In this document: positions 12,804 to 19,261 of the stretch, one piece after another
How the letters are laid out: every line of letters starts with the position of its first letter
How positions within the stretch are numbered: the first letter of the stretch is position 1
NCBI GenBank assembly: GCA_900128585.1
Contig: LT642378.1
Span: 1-20,369, forward strand
Reading direction: 5' to 3'
Source of the DNA: Stramenopiles sp. TOSAG23-3
Taxonomy: Eukaryota > Sar
DNA: 20,369 nt
The notes under the pieces: model-generated
Told to the model about the DNA's origin: nothing
Seen by the model: the letters and a program-made list of their open reading frames with translations, nothing else
Database searches by the model: none
Program-made: the position numbers and the translations under genes

Positions 12804-13208
12804 GGATATTTTAGTAAGAAACCTGCACTATTGGCCACACCACTGATGACAAATAACGGTGATCGATAATAGCTTATATATTTTTATTTTTATTTCATTG
12901 TAGTAGTATTAATACATACCTGGTACTGTACCCACGGTAACACCACAATAGTTGGATGATAATAAATAAAAAAATAATAATACGAAAAAATATATATAGA
13001 ACGAGAACGACTATGATATAATAATAATAAAATAAAGAAAATCCTTTTCGTAGGTACAGGTTCCATTGATTTCTGTCGATTCATGCTCGCGAGACGTCAC
13101 ACCGACTTCCACGTTTCCTACATTGCTATTATAAATTTTTCTTCTTTTGCATCGCTTGCCTGCTCTAAACCACGGCTGGATCCTGTACTTTCGAAACAAA
13201 CACACAAT
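12804..13208. other. Divergent spacer upstream of the beta-helix gene
   Basis: About 400 nt lie between the two divergent start codons. It is AT-rich, with the palindrome GTATTAATAC at 12906-12915 (the core also seen in both copies of the dispersed repeat) followed by a GGTAC-rich patch, and TA runs around 12960-13035. The frame of the beta-helix gene is open from an ATG at 13083, but 13083-13208 encodes no convincing signal peptide, so I treat it as probable 5' leader. Confidence 0.45.
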
Positions 13209-16097
13209 ATGCCAAGGCTCTCTTTTCTTATAGCATTTTGTTTCTCGGTTCTCGGGGTTTCCGTTTCCGAATTTCACAACAGCGGTACCCCCAACTATAT
13301 TTCAAAATCATTTGATTGCAATGTGCGAAAAGCGGCTTATGAATATGGAAAAGCACTGATACCCCGACGTGGGGACTTCAAAACTCTGTTTGACGCTCTG
13401 CAGCTTGGCAATGGTTGCAATGTGCCTGAGCCAAAGGGTCCGGTAGACGCTTGGAGTCCAACCAAGTATCCTACACCAAAGAGCAACGTTATATATGCAG
13501 ATGCTGCGAAAGGCTCTGACAGAACAGGGAGTGGCTCAAAATCAAACCCTTTTCAATCGATTGCCAAGGCTGTTTTTGCGGCGAAACATCACACAACCAT
13601 TCTTCTCCGCGGTGGAACTTACTTCACAGAACAAATTGAACTCGGCACTGAGCTTTCTGGGCTGACGATTCAAAATTACGATGGAGAACGGGTAACCGTC
13701 TCTGGGGGCATTCCGATAAATATAACAGGCCAAAGGTTATGGAAACCGTACAAAGTAAAGCACGGGTGGGACTCTCCTGCCTTAGGAGGTAATAATATTT
13801 ACGGCAAAGTTCCAGCGCCAAAGACCAACACGTCGCTAGTAAAATATTTGGGGTCATTTCCAACGCTTGCAGCATGCCAGGAGGCCGCCCGAGCTGATTT
13901 TGGAAGCGTAACATGGCACCACCCTGATTTTGATCGCAGTTGGGCTTCTCAGTGCTACGGTACTTTACAACGCTCGGGATGGTGGAATCCTTTCCGGGAA
14001 GAAGGGGTGGATTCTGTGCAATTTCTGAGGCAAAATATTTGGGTTGTTGATCTGAAAGAGGCAGACAAACTTGCGAACTCTCGCCTTGGCTCTGACGACT
14101 CGTCGTTTAAAGGGCTGCGAACACCGGACGGGCGCCGTGCCATACGGGCGAAATTTCCAAATGGTGACCCAGAGTTGAGTGGACAATGGTATGAATCATC
14201 TGATCCGGGAATGGGGGCTGGAGAATACGTAACCGGGTGGGTCACGCAGGACACAGAGTGGTTAAAGCCGGACAGAAAGCCAGATGCGACTGAGCTCGTT
14301 GCCAATGGAAAAGATTGGCCAGGGGTTTTCTGGCCTGACGCAGAAGAGGGCGGTTCGAAATGGACGGGGGAGGGGGACTGGGGTGATTTTCACATAGGAA
14401 TGGGCGGTTACTGTGACGATATTTTTCCACCGACAGGATATTGGTGCTCTATGAAACCGCCCCGTGGTCAATGTTTTGACAATAAGACAATGACCAGTAA
14501 GGGCTGCACTCAAACACATATGGCACCAATAGGAATCCGATATTCGGGTGTACTGGACCGTGTTGAGAATTATACAAACCCACAGGGTGCGATTGTGCAA
14601 GTCTGGCGCGGGGGGGGTAGGTGGTTCACGAACCTCTGTCGAGTCAGTAGGGTCGACAAAGCAAGTAAGATTATAGTGTTTTCAAAAGATGGGCCAGGCG
14701 GCGGTTGCAACCAAGGCGGAGAGGGAGAAGTGTCTGGTAGTCAGTGGTGGATTGAAAATGTGCTGGAGGAGCTGGACGAAGCTGGGGAATGGTATTTTGA
14801 TAAGAAAACTCGACTTCTATACTACGGCTTTAACCATACCAATACACCACCCATCAGTACGAACTGGGTAGCAACAAAAACAGAAGTATTGTTTAATGTA
14901 ACCGGTACAAGCCAATCCCTGCCTGTTCGCGGTATCACGATTCGTGGATTGGAGCTACGGGACACCTCATACACTTATATCGGAACCGGGAAAGCCGCAG
15001 TCCACGGGATGCCATCTGGTGGCGATTGGGGCCTTCAGCGTTCGGGTGCAATCTTGATTGAAAATTCAGAAGACGTAGTCGTCGATGGTAATTTTTTTAC
15101 GCGCATTGATGGCAATGGGATTTCGCTAAATAATTACAACCGTAGGGCAGTGTTTTCCAACAACGATTTTTCCTGGGTTGGTGATAGCGCTATGGCAAGT
15201 TGGGGTAGTACAGGTTACTGTATAAATGCAAACTGCTCCAACAAAATTGATTATCCAAGCGGCCCTGATGGAAGAGGTGGAAACCAGCCTCGATACACGA
15301 ATGTGACAGGAAATCTCGTGCGAGAAGTCGGTATATGGCAGAAACAGAGCAGCATGTGGTTTCAAGCAACCACCGCACGAACTTATTTTGCACGGAATGT
15401 GTTTTTCAATGGCCCAAGGGCAGCCCTAAATTTCAATGATGGGTTTGGTGGTGGGGACATCATTGAAAATAATTTACTTGCCAATTGTGTACGCGAATCT
15501 GGTGACCATGGACCATGGAATAGCTGGGATCGAATTCCATACATTACTGAGCTTGGAATGCTCCCCGATGCGTCGTCTCCAACCGGTTATAAAGATGCAG
15601 AGGGATATCCCTCTGTTGTCCCGACATTTCGAACCATTCGTTACAATTTTGTGTTTGATGTCTACTCGAGTCAAGAGGGTATTGACACTGACGATGGTAG
15701 TAGTTTTTATCACACACACGATAACTTTTTGGTGTATGCGGCTGCAGGATTAAAGAGTGATTTTGGAGGCCAATGGAACTGGCACTATGATAATGTATAC
15801 GCATATGTTGGACAATGTTTCGGAACGGGCAACAATCTAGCATTTTTTAACAACACATGCGCAACCTTTGGTGACGGGTATTTGTCTGACTGTCAAAAGG
15901 AAATGCCGAAAATTTACGGAAATGTGGTTAGTAATGAAAAGGGAGAGATGCACGTGTGTGGAGGCAAATCACTGAAAGAATGGGTCAAAGAAGGTCATGA
16001 TGAAGGCACAACAATTGGCAAGTGGCCGTCTGATGAAACACTGGTAAAGAGGGGGGTTGAAAAGGTCATGAAAGGGCTCAGAATTAGTAAAATTTAA
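13209..16097 (+). CDS. Secreted right-handed parallel beta-helix protein
   Basis: The ATG at 13209 gives 962 aa with a clear signal peptide (MPRLSFLIAFCFSVLGVSVS). An upstream in-frame ATG at 13083 would add 42 residues and bury the signal, so it is less likely. Around residues 92-160 is the DUF1565-type start of a beta-helix: IYADAAKGSDRTGSG...NPFQSIAKAV...ILLRGGTY. The middle (about 170-570) is a large, Trp- and Gly-rich insertion. About 577-895 contains irregular beta-helix coils with Asn ladders (VVVDGNFFTRIDGNGISLNN, FSNNDFSW, IIENNLLANC) and the motif GDHGPWNSWDR. Such proteins are often polysaccharide lyases or hydrolases; the catalytic residues cannot be assigned. Codon use looks more AT-rich than in the mannosidase and oxidase genes, possibly marking a different origin. 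An AATAAA lies just after the stop. Confidence 0.9.
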   Translation: MPRLSFLIAFCFSVLGVSVSEFHNSGTPNYISKSFDCNVRKAAYEYGKALIPRRGDFKTLFDALQLGNGCNVPEPKGPVDAWSPTKYPTPKSNVIYADAAKGSDRTGSGSKSNPFQSIAKAVFAAKHHTTILLRGGTYFTEQIELGTELSGLTIQNYDGERVTVSGGIPINITGQRLWKPYKVKHGWDSPALGGNNIYGKVPAPKTNTSLVKYLGSFPTLAACQEAARADFGSVTWHHPDFDRSWASQCYGTLQRSGWWNPFREEGVDSVQFLRQNIWVVDLKEADKLANSRLGSDDSSFKGLRTPDGRRAIRAKFPNGDPELSGQWYESSDPGMGAGEYVTGWVTQDTEWLKPDRKPDATELVANGKDWPGVFWPDAEEGGSKWTGEGDWGDFHIGMGGYCDDIFPPTGYWCSMKPPRGQCFDNKTMTSKGCTQTHMAPIGIRYSGVLDRVENYTNPQGAIVQVWRGGGRWFTNLCRVSRVDKASKIIVFSKDGPGGGCNQGGEGEVSGSQWWIENVLEELDEAGEWYFDKKTRLLYYGFNHTNTPPISTNWVATKTEVLFNVTGTSQSLPVRGITIRGLELRDTSYTYIGTGKAAVHGMPSGGDWGLQRSGAILIENSEDVVVDGNFFTRIDGNGISLNNYNRRAVFSNNDFSWVGDSAMASWGSTGYCINANCSNKIDYPSGPDGRGGNQPRYTNVTGNLVREVGIWQKQSSMWFQATTARTYFARNVFFNGPRAALNFNDGFGGGDIIENNLLANCVRESGDHGPWNSWDRIPYITELGMLPDASSPTGYKDAEGYPSVVPTFRTIRYNFVFDVYSSQEGIDTDDGSSFYHTHDNFLVYAAAGLKSDFGGQWNWHYDNVYAYVGQCFGTGNNLAFFNNTCATFGDGYLSDCQKEMPKIYGNVVSNEKGEMHVCGGKSLKEWVKEGHDEGTTIGKWPSDETLVKRGVEKVMKGLRISKI

Positions 16098-16170: not shown

Positions 16171-16187
16171 TATATTTTTTTTTAATC

Positions 16188-16512
16188 TTAAATAACAGCC
16201 AATTTTCTTGTTTAAATAACAGCCAATTTTCTTGTTTTTCAAGGATTGAGTCACCTATGAGTGAGATATCGGGTGAGGAAGTTGATTACGGTTCATTTGC
16301 AAGCATTGCTAATCCAGATTACCGATTCGGATCGTTCATGGACTCCACTCTAGATTTCAGTTTTCAGTTTTCAGTTCGCAGTACATTAATTTTAATTAAC
16401 TTAAATAACAGCCAATTTTCTTATTTTAATTACTATATAAAATAACAGCCAATTTTTCTTGTGTTTTATATTTTTTTAATTACTATAATAAAATAACAGC
16501 CAATTTTCTTGT
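16188..16512 (+). repeat. Array of AATAACAGCCAATTTTCTTG repeats
   Basis: Five direct copies at about 16188-16213, 16211-16239, 16401-16426, 16438-16466 and 16491-16512. The first two are immediate tandem copies with a 24-nt period. The last two are about 53 nt apart and share extra flanking sequence (TTTTTTTAATTACTATA), so there is a higher-order unit. An unrelated stretch of about 160 nt (16240-16400) separates the first pair from the rest. An inverted copy lies at 11432-11461. Spacers are too irregular and too short for a CRISPR. Confidence 0.8.
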
Positions 16513-16690
16513 ATTTAATTAATAAAAAAATTAGATCTTAAAAACATTTGTGCGCACTTGTGCATGGGTATTTTATAATTTTGTTCTGCAACAACAGAAT
16601 CATATAATTATATTTTTTTGTCCTGTGCGAATTTCTGCATTTAATGTATACCAGCAGAGTCCTCCTTCAGAGGCGCAGGTCCCATGACAA

Positions 16691-16768
16691 TCGTTCCACG
16701 TGGATTCTCGGGCTAGGTGTCCCCTTGTATGTTATTCGTTTTGGGAGCACAGCCGTCATTGGCAACAA
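16691..16768 (-). promoter_or_regulatory. SECIS element (selenocysteine insertion) in the GILT 3' UTR
   Basis: Read on the minus strand, a stem-loop starts 32 nt after the GILT stop. The lower helix pairs TTGTTGCCA (16768-16760, one bulged G) with TGGAACGA (16698-16691). Next is the ATGA quartet strand (16759-16756), then 13 nt (CGGCTGTGCTCCC) and AAAA at the start of the apical loop. The 3' arm GGGGACACCTAGCCC (16725-16711) pairs back: GGCT/AGCC, GTG/CAC, TCCC/GGGG, with a two-base bulge and one mismatch. It ends at the partner GA (16709-16708). ATGA, the spacing to the unpaired A run, and the opposite GA are the defining features of eukaryotic SECIS elements, which recruit SBP2 and EFSec. 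The apical loop is large and no extra mini-helix is clear, so it looks like form 1. Confidence 0.85.
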
Positions 16769-16799: not shown

Positions 16800-17873
16800 T
16801 CAGAAAATGGCGGCACGTCCAGGCGCAACAGCCGATTGATTTTTTATGTTATTGCTTCCTATATTTGGAAATCCGTTTGATCCCATCGCCCAGGCCAAAA
16901 AGGGGCCAAAGTCGGATCCAGCAATCCCACCGAGAAGCACCGACTGGAACGCTTTTAAAGAGCGGATAGTGACATCGATTTGGACTGTGTCTTGGTCAAC
17001 GCTCTTTGCTGACGTTAACTGCACCGCGTCTACGGCAAAAATGTTCACGTAGCTCGGTGAATGGTCAGGCTGAGACGTTTGAAAGTTTATCGGAAGCCAC
17101 TCTTTGCTTCCCACAAAGTTGGTGGCCTCCAAGATGGCTTTATTGAAATTGTCAACGTGACCGTTTATATCAGATTTGTTCAGCCCTGTGTTCGCAAGGT
17201 AAAACGTCAAATCTAAGGGGACCGATGTGCACACTTCTGGCTCGTCTTTGGGTCCAATTTCCTGGCATAGAACACGGACCAAAGACGCCCAAGAATTGTT
17301 GTATAAATGCGCGCCGTTCACAAAAATGTGCGGAAACAGCCCTCGAGGGTGAAGTTTCTTGTACATCGGGGCCCGTGTTTTGTTCAAACTTTTCTCGATG
17401 CGCCCAACTTCCGTCTTGTTCGCCGCGCAACCACTGACCTGCTCGTAGTCGATGCCCGCCTCTTTTGCACACAGCGGTCGTCGCGCTGGATCCGGTGTTG
17501 CCTCGCGGTTGGCATATGGGCCCTCGAAGCACTTCAAAAAGTGGGCAACGTTTCGCTGTGAACTTGCGGAGCACTCGGATTGGAACCAGCAATATTCATG
17601 AACAAGGCAACTTTCGAACCTGACGCTGTCGCAGGCCATTCCGTCGCAAATGTAACTCCCTGAGACAGGGTCGATGTGGTTCAGCGGAAAGTACCGAAAT
17701 CGCACTCTCTCATTGAACGCGTCGAAAGCTAGTGTTTGGTATACTACATTGGATGCTTCGAAACAGTATTGTCACGTGCTGTAGCCGTACCAGTCTAAGG
17801 TAATCGGCGCCGTCGTCCCGTACACGAAACTGACCTGAAAAAATAAAACCAAGGCCGCAGTAGCAGAAACCAT
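16800..17873 (-). CDS. GILT-type thiol reductase selenoprotein (UxxC active site)
   Basis: The ATG at 17873 opens a frame of 357 residues to a TGA at 16800-16802, with a single internal TGA read here as Sec34. The start gives a signal peptide (MVSATAALVLFFQVSFVYG) directly before the thioredoxin-like strand ITLDWYGYST. The next four residues are Sec-Gln-Tyr-Cys, exactly where GILT proteins have CxxC. Other GILT features follow: the Cys/His cluster C89-x2-H92-x2-C95-x5-C101, further paired Cys, and LFPHIFVNGAHLYNN, like the family's HxYVPWVxVNG segment. GILT reduces protein disulfides in acidic lysosomes or vacuoles; Sec at the attacking position would strengthen nucleophilicity at low pH (inference). 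About 140 residues after the GILT domain are an unrecognised extension. A gene caller honouring TGA would start at about 17705 and lose the signal peptide and active site. Confidence 0.87.
17772..17774 (-). other. In-frame TGA proposed to encode selenocysteine (Sec34)
   Basis: The codon lies in frame with the upstream ATG (33 codons before it) and with the downstream 301-codon coding region, and it is the only internal stop. Context on the minus strand is AGC ACG TGA CAA TAC TGT, giving S-T-U-Q-Y-C. It aligns with the first Cys of the GILT CxxC, and a SECIS is present in the 3' flank. Confidence 0.87.
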
Positions 17874-18376: not shown

Positions 18377-19261
18377 ATGGCATCTTTAGCCAGCACCCGT
18401 GAACTGACCCAAGGGACCCCAGAATGGTTTGCGGCAAGAAGGAGTAGGCTGACGGCCTCTAATTTTGGGACGGCTGCAGGAATATCAAAGTACGTTAGCC
18501 CCAGATCATTGTGGCTGAAAATCACGAACCAAATAGAAGTTACTCGAAACGAGACTGCCGCAACGCAGCATGGTGTGGATAACGAAGACAAGGTCCGAAA
18601 AATGTACGAAGCAATCTCTGGGACCACGGTAACGGAGACTGGGTTTTGGGTTCATCCAAAACATGGTTGGCTAGGCGCATCGCCCGATGGTTTGGTTGGT
18701 GATATCGGTATGTTGGAAATTAAATGTCCCGTTTATCAAGTTCATGAGACAATTCCGGGTCATTACATGGCCCAGATACAGGGTCAGTTGGAATGTGCAG
18801 ATAGAATATATTGCGATTTTGCTAGTTGGCATGGGAACACATTGAACATCTGGAGAGTGTACCGGTCGAAAGTGTATTGGAACTGGTTGTATAGCATTTT
18901 GAAAGCGTTCTGGTTTTGCGTTGAGTGCCAAATAGATCCGTCGTCCAAGTGCCCCATCCCTCCTGAGCATCCTCCGCCACAGGTACAGATAGATTTCCTT
19001 TACAGCATGCCCCCGCCTTCCTCCAGGAAGAAGAAGAAAGCGCACTGCAATGCCGTTTGCAGCACAACGTCGAAACGGTGCAAGGTAACGTTTACTGTGC
19101 CAGAGCAAAACTTTAAGCCCTTGTTTTCGTATGTAAAGGGTCTAAGTCCAGGGCCCGTCCCATCCGTGCCTACGACTAACAGGTCTACAGCGTGCCTTTA
19201 CTGTCACATTCACAGTAGAAAATCGAGCATACCTCAACGAGAAGGTTCAAATCACGAGTAA
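18377..19261 (+). CDS. YqaJ/lambda-exonuclease-type nuclease with C-terminal Cys/His module
   Basis: 294 aa. Near the N-terminus the family motif GTPEWFAARRSRLTASNFGTAAG (13-35) matches the YqaJ signature (typically W..aR...iTAS..). PD-(D/E)xK catalytic residues are in place: E70, D104 in GASPDG, E114 and K116 in LEIKCP, then Q133/Q135 in AQIQGQLEC. Members are 5'-3' exonucleases in phage recombination systems; homologues occur in large DNA viruses and some eukaryotes. After the nuclease domain (to ~187) comes a Pro-rich linker, a basic patch (RKKKKAHC), and a Cys/His group (C224, C228, C235, C273, C276, H277/H279) resembling a small zinc-binding module, perhaps for DNA binding. No partner annealing protein is seen nearby. 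Probably descended from viral or phage DNA; whether it still serves a mobile element or the host is unknown. Confidence 0.88.
   Translation: MASLASTRELTQGTPEWFAARRSRLTASNFGTAAGISKYVSPRSLWLKITNQIEVTRNETAATQHGVDNEDKVRKMYEAISGTTVTETGFWVHPKHGWLGASPDGLVGDIGMLEIKCPVYQVHETIPGHYMAQIQGQLECADRIYCDFASWHGNTLNIWRVYRSKVYWNWLYSILKAFWFCVECQIDPSSKCPIPPEHPPPQVQIDFLYSMPPPSSRKKKKAHCNAVCSTTSKRCKVTFTVPEQNFKPLFSYVKGLSPGPVPSVPTTNRSTACLYCHIHSRKSSIPQREGSNHE

Follow-up and report, generated by a model that had tools for sequence, protein, structure and literature searches.

Selenocysteine (Sec) forms of the thiol reductase GILT were described in a 2008 study on Global Ocean Sampling data, the authors of which were reportedly Zhang and Gladyshev. 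Sec-GILT was announced there as a new eukaryotic selenoprotein family represented by three sequences, one of which had a predicted selenocysteine insertion sequence (SECIS) element in its 3' untranslated region (UTR), and the hosts are given as unknown in that description (PMC2398784). In 2018, 35 selenoproteins of Aureococcus anophagefferens were presented as changing in expression, one of them a 'GILT superfamily protein' (PMC5917014, Figure 6 legend), and in a 2020 algal survey GILT is counted among the least distributed selenoprotein families (PMC7539508). Here we describe GILT1, a gene on the minus strand of a 20,369-nucleotide stretch of Stramenopiles sp. TOSAG23-3 (contig LT642378.1; this whole stretch is referred to as the window). 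Its product is very probably a GILT-like thiol-disulfide reductase, secreted or lumenal, in which the nucleophilic Cys is replaced by Sec through SECIS-directed recoding.

GILT1 has a single in-frame TGA at its predicted active site

The gene and the features around its predicted active site are as follows:

16800..17873, minus strand: GILT1, probable GILT-like selenoprotein gene (ATG at 17873, 357 codons, TGA stop at 16802..16800)
17772..17774, minus strand: in-frame TGA, codon 34, read as Sec, the first position of UxxC
17763..17765, minus strand: codon 37, putative resolving Cys of U-Q-Y-C (C37 is invariant in the 7-row alignment A4)
17817..17873, minus strand: putative signal peptide, about residues 1-19 (judged by eye; predicted local distance difference test score (pLDDT) <50 in the model)

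The codons from 17873 to 16803 on the minus strand include exactly one internal TGA, codon 34, inside S-T-U-Q-Y-C, and the self match in a whole-genome search with the GILT1 protein was likewise reported with '1 TGA' inside. All 11 other Cys codons are TGC or TGT and the lone TGA is the catalytic position. In alignment A4, U34 shared its column with the Cys of P0047 and P0050, two Cys-type relatives. Apart from the UGA the frame is open and conserved, and homologues have Cys where the UGA stands. A sequence-only reading of the window had claimed that the TGA falls on the first active-site position and not at random, and this is borne out by the single TGA, by the codons of the other cysteines and by both paralogues described below, which repeat the pattern. 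The same reading placed an ATG and a signal peptide upstream in the same frame; the N-terminus behind the ATG is indeed hydrophobic by eye, the frame is open apart from the TGA, and an in-frame stop lies 5' of the ATG with seven codons between.

Two diverged paralogues carry TGA at the same position

The assembly searched comprises 12.9 Mb in 660 contigs, and the window is its contig C636. GILT2, on contig C116, was found by a Pfam GILT search as a gene with one TGA inside; it has 230 residues, matches Pfam GILT with E 1.8e-18 and contains CQHGKEEC, and its sole internal TGA is U31 in AEUPEC. GILT3, on contig C175, was found with the GILT1 protein as query (E 3.4e-15, 28% identity) and has 218 residues, a TAG stop and a sole internal TGA, U35 in ASWUPEC; in Pfam it matches thioredoxin families and not GILT. 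The three GILT-type copies are strongly diverged in sequence, with BLASTP identities of 25% between GILT3 and GILT1 (229 columns), 21% between GILT3 and GILT2 (242 columns) and 19% between GILT1 and GILT2 (126 columns). In 3/3 GILT-type genes found the only in-frame TGA is at the same active-site position, and all other cysteines (11-14 per gene) are encoded by TGC or TGT.

Relatives in protein collections mostly begin after the TGA position

A single-sequence search gave 11 GILT1 relatives; a profile search, with scoring confined to the 8000 candidates that had the most words in common, brought the total to 34. None of the 34 has a residue aligned with U34: 29 plainly start after this column, in three (P0012, P0072 and P0085) the aligner put stray residues ahead of it, and a gap covers it in the two models from Aureococcus anophagefferens, P0080 and P0084. 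In the Aureococcus models VDVEWY is directly followed by CYEASNVV, where GILT1 has LDWY-GYSTUQY-CFEASNVV. The likeness upstream of the gap is short. These models may have been built around an in-frame stop. P0080 is 40% identical to GILT1 over residues 36-206.

The GILT2-type relatives (P0014-P0062, n = 49, all with precomputed Pfam GILT) come from metagenome and MMETSP-derived protein sets. Among them 44 start at residues 33-55, directly after U31, as expected of bacterial-code gene callers, and these 44 proteins are probably annotated without their active site. The remaining five span the column, two with W (P0015, P0016), two with C (P0047, P0050) and one with a misaligned P. The W may reflect a TGA read under code 4, or it may come from TGG. 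No relatives were found in scans of viral contigs and prokaryote genome contigs.

Starts of this kind raise the question whether GILT1 itself begins at a downstream codon (e.g. residue 57 or 79), with the TGA merely ending a short upstream frame. Gene callers do assign such starts in relatives, and the list of open reading frames (ORFs) opens GILT1 at residue 57. With such a start, however, the hydrophobic N-terminus would be lost together with the first strand, the active site and helix 1 (residues 24-48 in the model), and the Aureococcus models retain short stretches resembling GILT1 on both sides of their gap (VEWY and CYEASNVV against LDWY and CFEASNVV), of which BLASTP aligns the downstream one only. 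We therefore give a truncated protein very little credence.

Probable selenoprotein genes and the genetic code of the assembly

Readthrough as Sec at the first active-site position, the core of the sequence-only reading, has independent backing from the same assembly in the form of the two paralogues, a second kind of TGA-containing gene and a biosynthetic enzyme. SepSecS is encoded (PF05889, E 5.1e-127, profile positions 1-389 of 389). The only glutathione peroxidase (GPx) gene found (contig C474, L012:1450-1980, plus strand) has a TGA at codon 48 in the motif NTAAEUAKK, the place at which GPx enzymes carry Sec or Cys. Rdx and MsrA were considered as further selenoproteins and excluded, as all six matches in the assembly (three each) run without TGA.

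One of these frames deserves separate mention. A 486-aa frame without TGA (L009/L014, G000:C493:26693-27637) contains both an MsrA match (PF01625) and an Rdx/SelW-type match (PF10262) and so appears to fuse two families whose members are often selenoproteins.

A further possibility is a nuclear code in which TGA is reassigned to Cys or Trp genome-wide, and the W at this site in the two GILT2 relatives named above could be read in that way. In the assembly itself, the three GILT genes use TGC or TGT for their other cysteines and the six Rdx and MsrA matches lack TGA altogether. In eight other long window ORFs that were counted, TGC or TGT occurs 95 times, and TGA is the stop codon of four of them. 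That they contain no internal TGA follows from the ORF list being cut at TGA; even so, a code in which TGA is Cys is unlikely, since with TGA in common use for Cys one would hardly expect open frames as long as 1065 aa. The probability of a reassigned code is accordingly put close to nil.

SECIS-like elements downstream of the stop codons

Downstream of the GILT1 stop lies:

16705..16759, minus strand: SECIS-like element of GILT1 (ATGA quartet, helix, unpaired AAAA 13 nt from the quartet, 3' GA)

SECIS-like hairpins were located by a self-written scanner requiring RTGA, an upper stem, unpaired AA or CC and a 3' GA. Matches were obtained past the stops of all four TGA-containing genes, at +40 nt for GILT1, +100 nt for GILT2, +83 nt for GILT3 and +42 nt for GPx. 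When the 300-nt flanks were dinucleotide-shuffled, the observed energy was reached in 0, 2, 17 and 0 of 1000 shuffles, respectively. When the window and 13 loci were scanned on both strands (125,658 nt), six other ATGA-type matches at ≤ -9.5 kcal/mol were found; as two loci overlap by 2,754 bases and share one match, this leaves five distinct matches in about 120,000 nt. All four gene flanks carry an ATGA-type hairpin against a background of 0.012 per 300 nt. In the centroid fold, the GILT1 element has a lower helix, an internal loop and an upper stem, and when folded with their flanks the GPx and GILT3 stretches exceeded their shuffled versions in stability (z = -5.2 and -2.6). According to the SECISearch rule as given in PMC2375036, 10-13 nt separate the quartet from the AA or CC; GILT1 and GPx, with AA at 13, are within this range. 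By our own scanner and shuffles, then, GILT1 has a SECIS-like element in its 3' UTR, and the stem-loop that the sequence-only reading had proposed after the stop was recovered.

These hairpins also bear on the possibility that a GILT gene once of the Cys type acquired the TGA by chance as a stop (a pseudogene or nonsense allele), or that the TGA is a sequencing error, for which it speaks that the TGA is known from one assembly only. A chance event or an error would have to account for TGA at the same position in three diverged paralogues with frames otherwise open, for a SECIS-like hairpin behind the stop of each, and for relatives that plainly start after the site in 44/49 GILT2-type and 29/34 GILT1-type cases, and we regard it as very improbable.

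Observations that weigh against recoding

Several results count against a recoded UGA in GILT1. The rules of the scanner were set after the GILT1 and GILT2 flanks had been viewed and were then kept unchanged, so that of the four SECIS tests only those on GPx and GILT3 are blind, and our confidence is lowered slightly for this reason. The quartet spacing is outside 10-13 nt by 1-3 nt in GILT3 (AA at 14) and GILT2 (CC at 14 or AA at 16), and the GILT1 and GILT2 stretches folded with their flanks were not more stable than shuffles (z = 0.2 and -0.4). An Rfam scan gave no SECIS in the window or the GILT2, GILT3 and GPx loci; its silence at the GPx locus means that Rfam also misses the GPx element.

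Regarding the machinery, tRNA-Sec was not found in the assembly by covariance model at E ≤ 0.001 (53 of 1003 candidates scored). A self-made tRNA-Sec pattern gave three matches in the assembly, and ARAGORN sees no tRNA gene in those loci; nor did ARAGORN report any tRNA in the window or six loci, or Rfam any tRNA-Sec in the window, L003, L012, L007 and L017. SelD was not found in the 12.9 Mb, and eEFSec domain III was not found by a search that detected no control either. The PSTK/KTI12 family (PF08433) was also not found in the assembly. Since this family also covers KTI12, which is presumably general in eukaryotes and would be expected in any of them, the assembly is probably incomplete. Of the Sec machinery, SepSecS is present; of the three components whose absence the sequence-only reading had named as evidence against it (tRNA-Sec, EFSec and SBP2), the two that were searched for, tRNA-Sec and eEFSec, were not found in this probably incomplete assembly. 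Finally, GILT1 (P0001) matches no Pfam family at E ≤ 1, and the Pfam GILT cut-off is not passed.

Fold and family assignment

Two domains can be delimited in GILT1:

17229..17810, minus strand: predicted GILT / DsbA-type thioredoxin-fold domain, about residues 22-215
16824..17228, minus strand: predicted C-terminal extra domain, about residues 216-350 (strand-helix-strand-strand-helix-strand, SEA/ferredoxin-like in the model)

Four of the 35 members of the GILT1 subfamily match Pfam GILT, weakly (best E 0.04). The GILT signature is CQHGx2ECx2Nx4C, and in its strict form it is absent from GILT1, which has no CQHG. By eye, CDGMACDSVRFESC of GILT1 recalls the signature with spacings of 4 then 7 (6 then 7 in P0012 and P0067); alignment A4 instead sets C95/C101 at the signature cysteines, so that the correspondence differs from the reading by eye. 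The signature stretch of GILT2 reads CQHGKEECDADKLEGC, with D replacing N. The GILT2 family profile matches the mouse GILT structure 6nwx with E 5.7e-30, and the GILT1 subfamily profile gave no match to PDB sequences at E ≤ 10.

A first structure model was built from 12 subfamily rows, 11 of which are without the N-terminus, and was poor before residue 50; plain Foldseek gave no match at E ≤ 0.001, GILT did not appear in the 50 rows listed, and in VIA-align mouse GILT was the top thioredoxin-type row. The second model was built from 37 rows, six of which are outside the subfamily alignment A3 (P0086, P0013, P0016, P0047, P0050, P0015) while the A3 members P0064, P0081, P0084 and P0085 were omitted, a choice of rows that may favour a GILT-like result. 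GILT1 is predicted to have a GILT fold in which UxxC opens helix 1.

The lack of a Pfam GILT match and of the strict signature would also suit a Sec-containing DsbA-type or other thioredoxin-fold oxidoreductase that forms or shuffles disulfides, and DsbA is on top in Foldseek's own ranking. This reading is compatible with Sec at position 34; set beside the VIA-align result and the GILT2 profile it appears unlikely, though with a sizeable residual chance. The GILT identity claimed by the sequence-only reading is thus retained with a qualification, in that fold and profile agree with it and Pfam GILT misses the gene: GILT1 belongs to a divergent subfamily with an extra C-terminal domain and is not a textbook GILT.

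Neighbourhood of GILT1

A YqaJ-like recombinase ORF (PF09588, E 5.1e-26; window 18377-19261, plus strand) adjoins GILT1. Between a 1004-aa ORF (13083-16097) and the 3' end of GILT1 there are five repeat copies with the core AAATAACAGCCAATTTT (window 16177-16521), unevenly placed with start-to-start distances of 24-189 nt.

Proposed mechanism and its meaning

SECIS elements are bound by SBP2 and by eEFSec with Sec-tRNA(Sec), and UGA codon 34 would be recoded by the element in the 3' UTR. U34, with which the first helix of the predicted thioredoxin fold begins, would attack the substrate disulfide and C37 would resolve the mixed selenenylsulfide, the chemistry being that of GILT and other CxxC enzymes. 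The terminal UGA, 40 nt ahead of the SECIS quartet, would act as the stop; in mammalian genes a UGA too close to the SECIS is reported not to be decoded, so the terminal UGA could serve in this way. Selenols ionise at a lower pH than thiols do, and Sec may therefore suit an acidic compartment, where the selenol would help. For GILT1 we infer that Sec is inserted, that the protein is secreted and acts as a reductase at an acidic or vacuolar site, and that the C-terminal domain has a role; the host may be an alga, as the sequence-only reading implies.

More tentatively, and with somewhat less than an even chance, GILT1 may represent a clade of secreted GILT-like selenoenzymes with two domains, all of them using Sec and none having a Cys form, in a host whose whole GILT family (3/3 found) is Sec-based. 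If true, this lineage has tied lumenal disulfide reduction to selenium. GILT1 reveals a subfamily that is missed by Pfam and whose predicted gene models open beyond the Sec or bypass it, which suggests that many GILT entries in protein collections are without the active site. The benefit of Sec for a reductase working at low pH becomes a testable chemical question. Sec-GILT also gains a genome context with paralogues and SECIS-like elements, its hosts having been given as unknown when it was described (PMC2398784).

Comparison with known GILT proteins

Beyond PMC2398784, PMC7539508 and PMC5917014, no further title or abstract on Sec-GILT was seen among those listed, subscription journals being mostly outside the literature covered. 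Within that literature no Sec-GILT-like protein with this C-terminal domain and no genome with three Sec-GILT genes was seen; the supplements of the 2020 survey or its family database may hold either.

Like GILT1 as interpreted here, the Global Ocean Sampling Sec-GILTs are marine eukaryotic GILTs with Sec (PMC2398784); unlike GILT1, they have hosts given there as unknown, and the likeness is one of description, not of alignment. The algal and Aureococcus GILT selenoproteins belong to the same superfamily as GILT1, and Aureococcus P0080 and P0084 are relatives of it; the Aureococcus selenoprotein GILT goes by its family name in the figure legend (PMC5917014) and is not equated with P0080 or P0084. 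P0014-P0062, on the other hand, are GILT2-type and not GILT1-type.

With mammalian GILT (IFI30; mouse 6nwx; PF03227) GILT1 shares the predicted fold and an active site located where helix 1 begins. The nucleophile position of IFI30 is occupied by Cys, and GILT1 differs further in being without the strict CQHG signature and in its extra C-terminal domain. Sec-GILT itself is already known, and GILT1 is very probably a further member.
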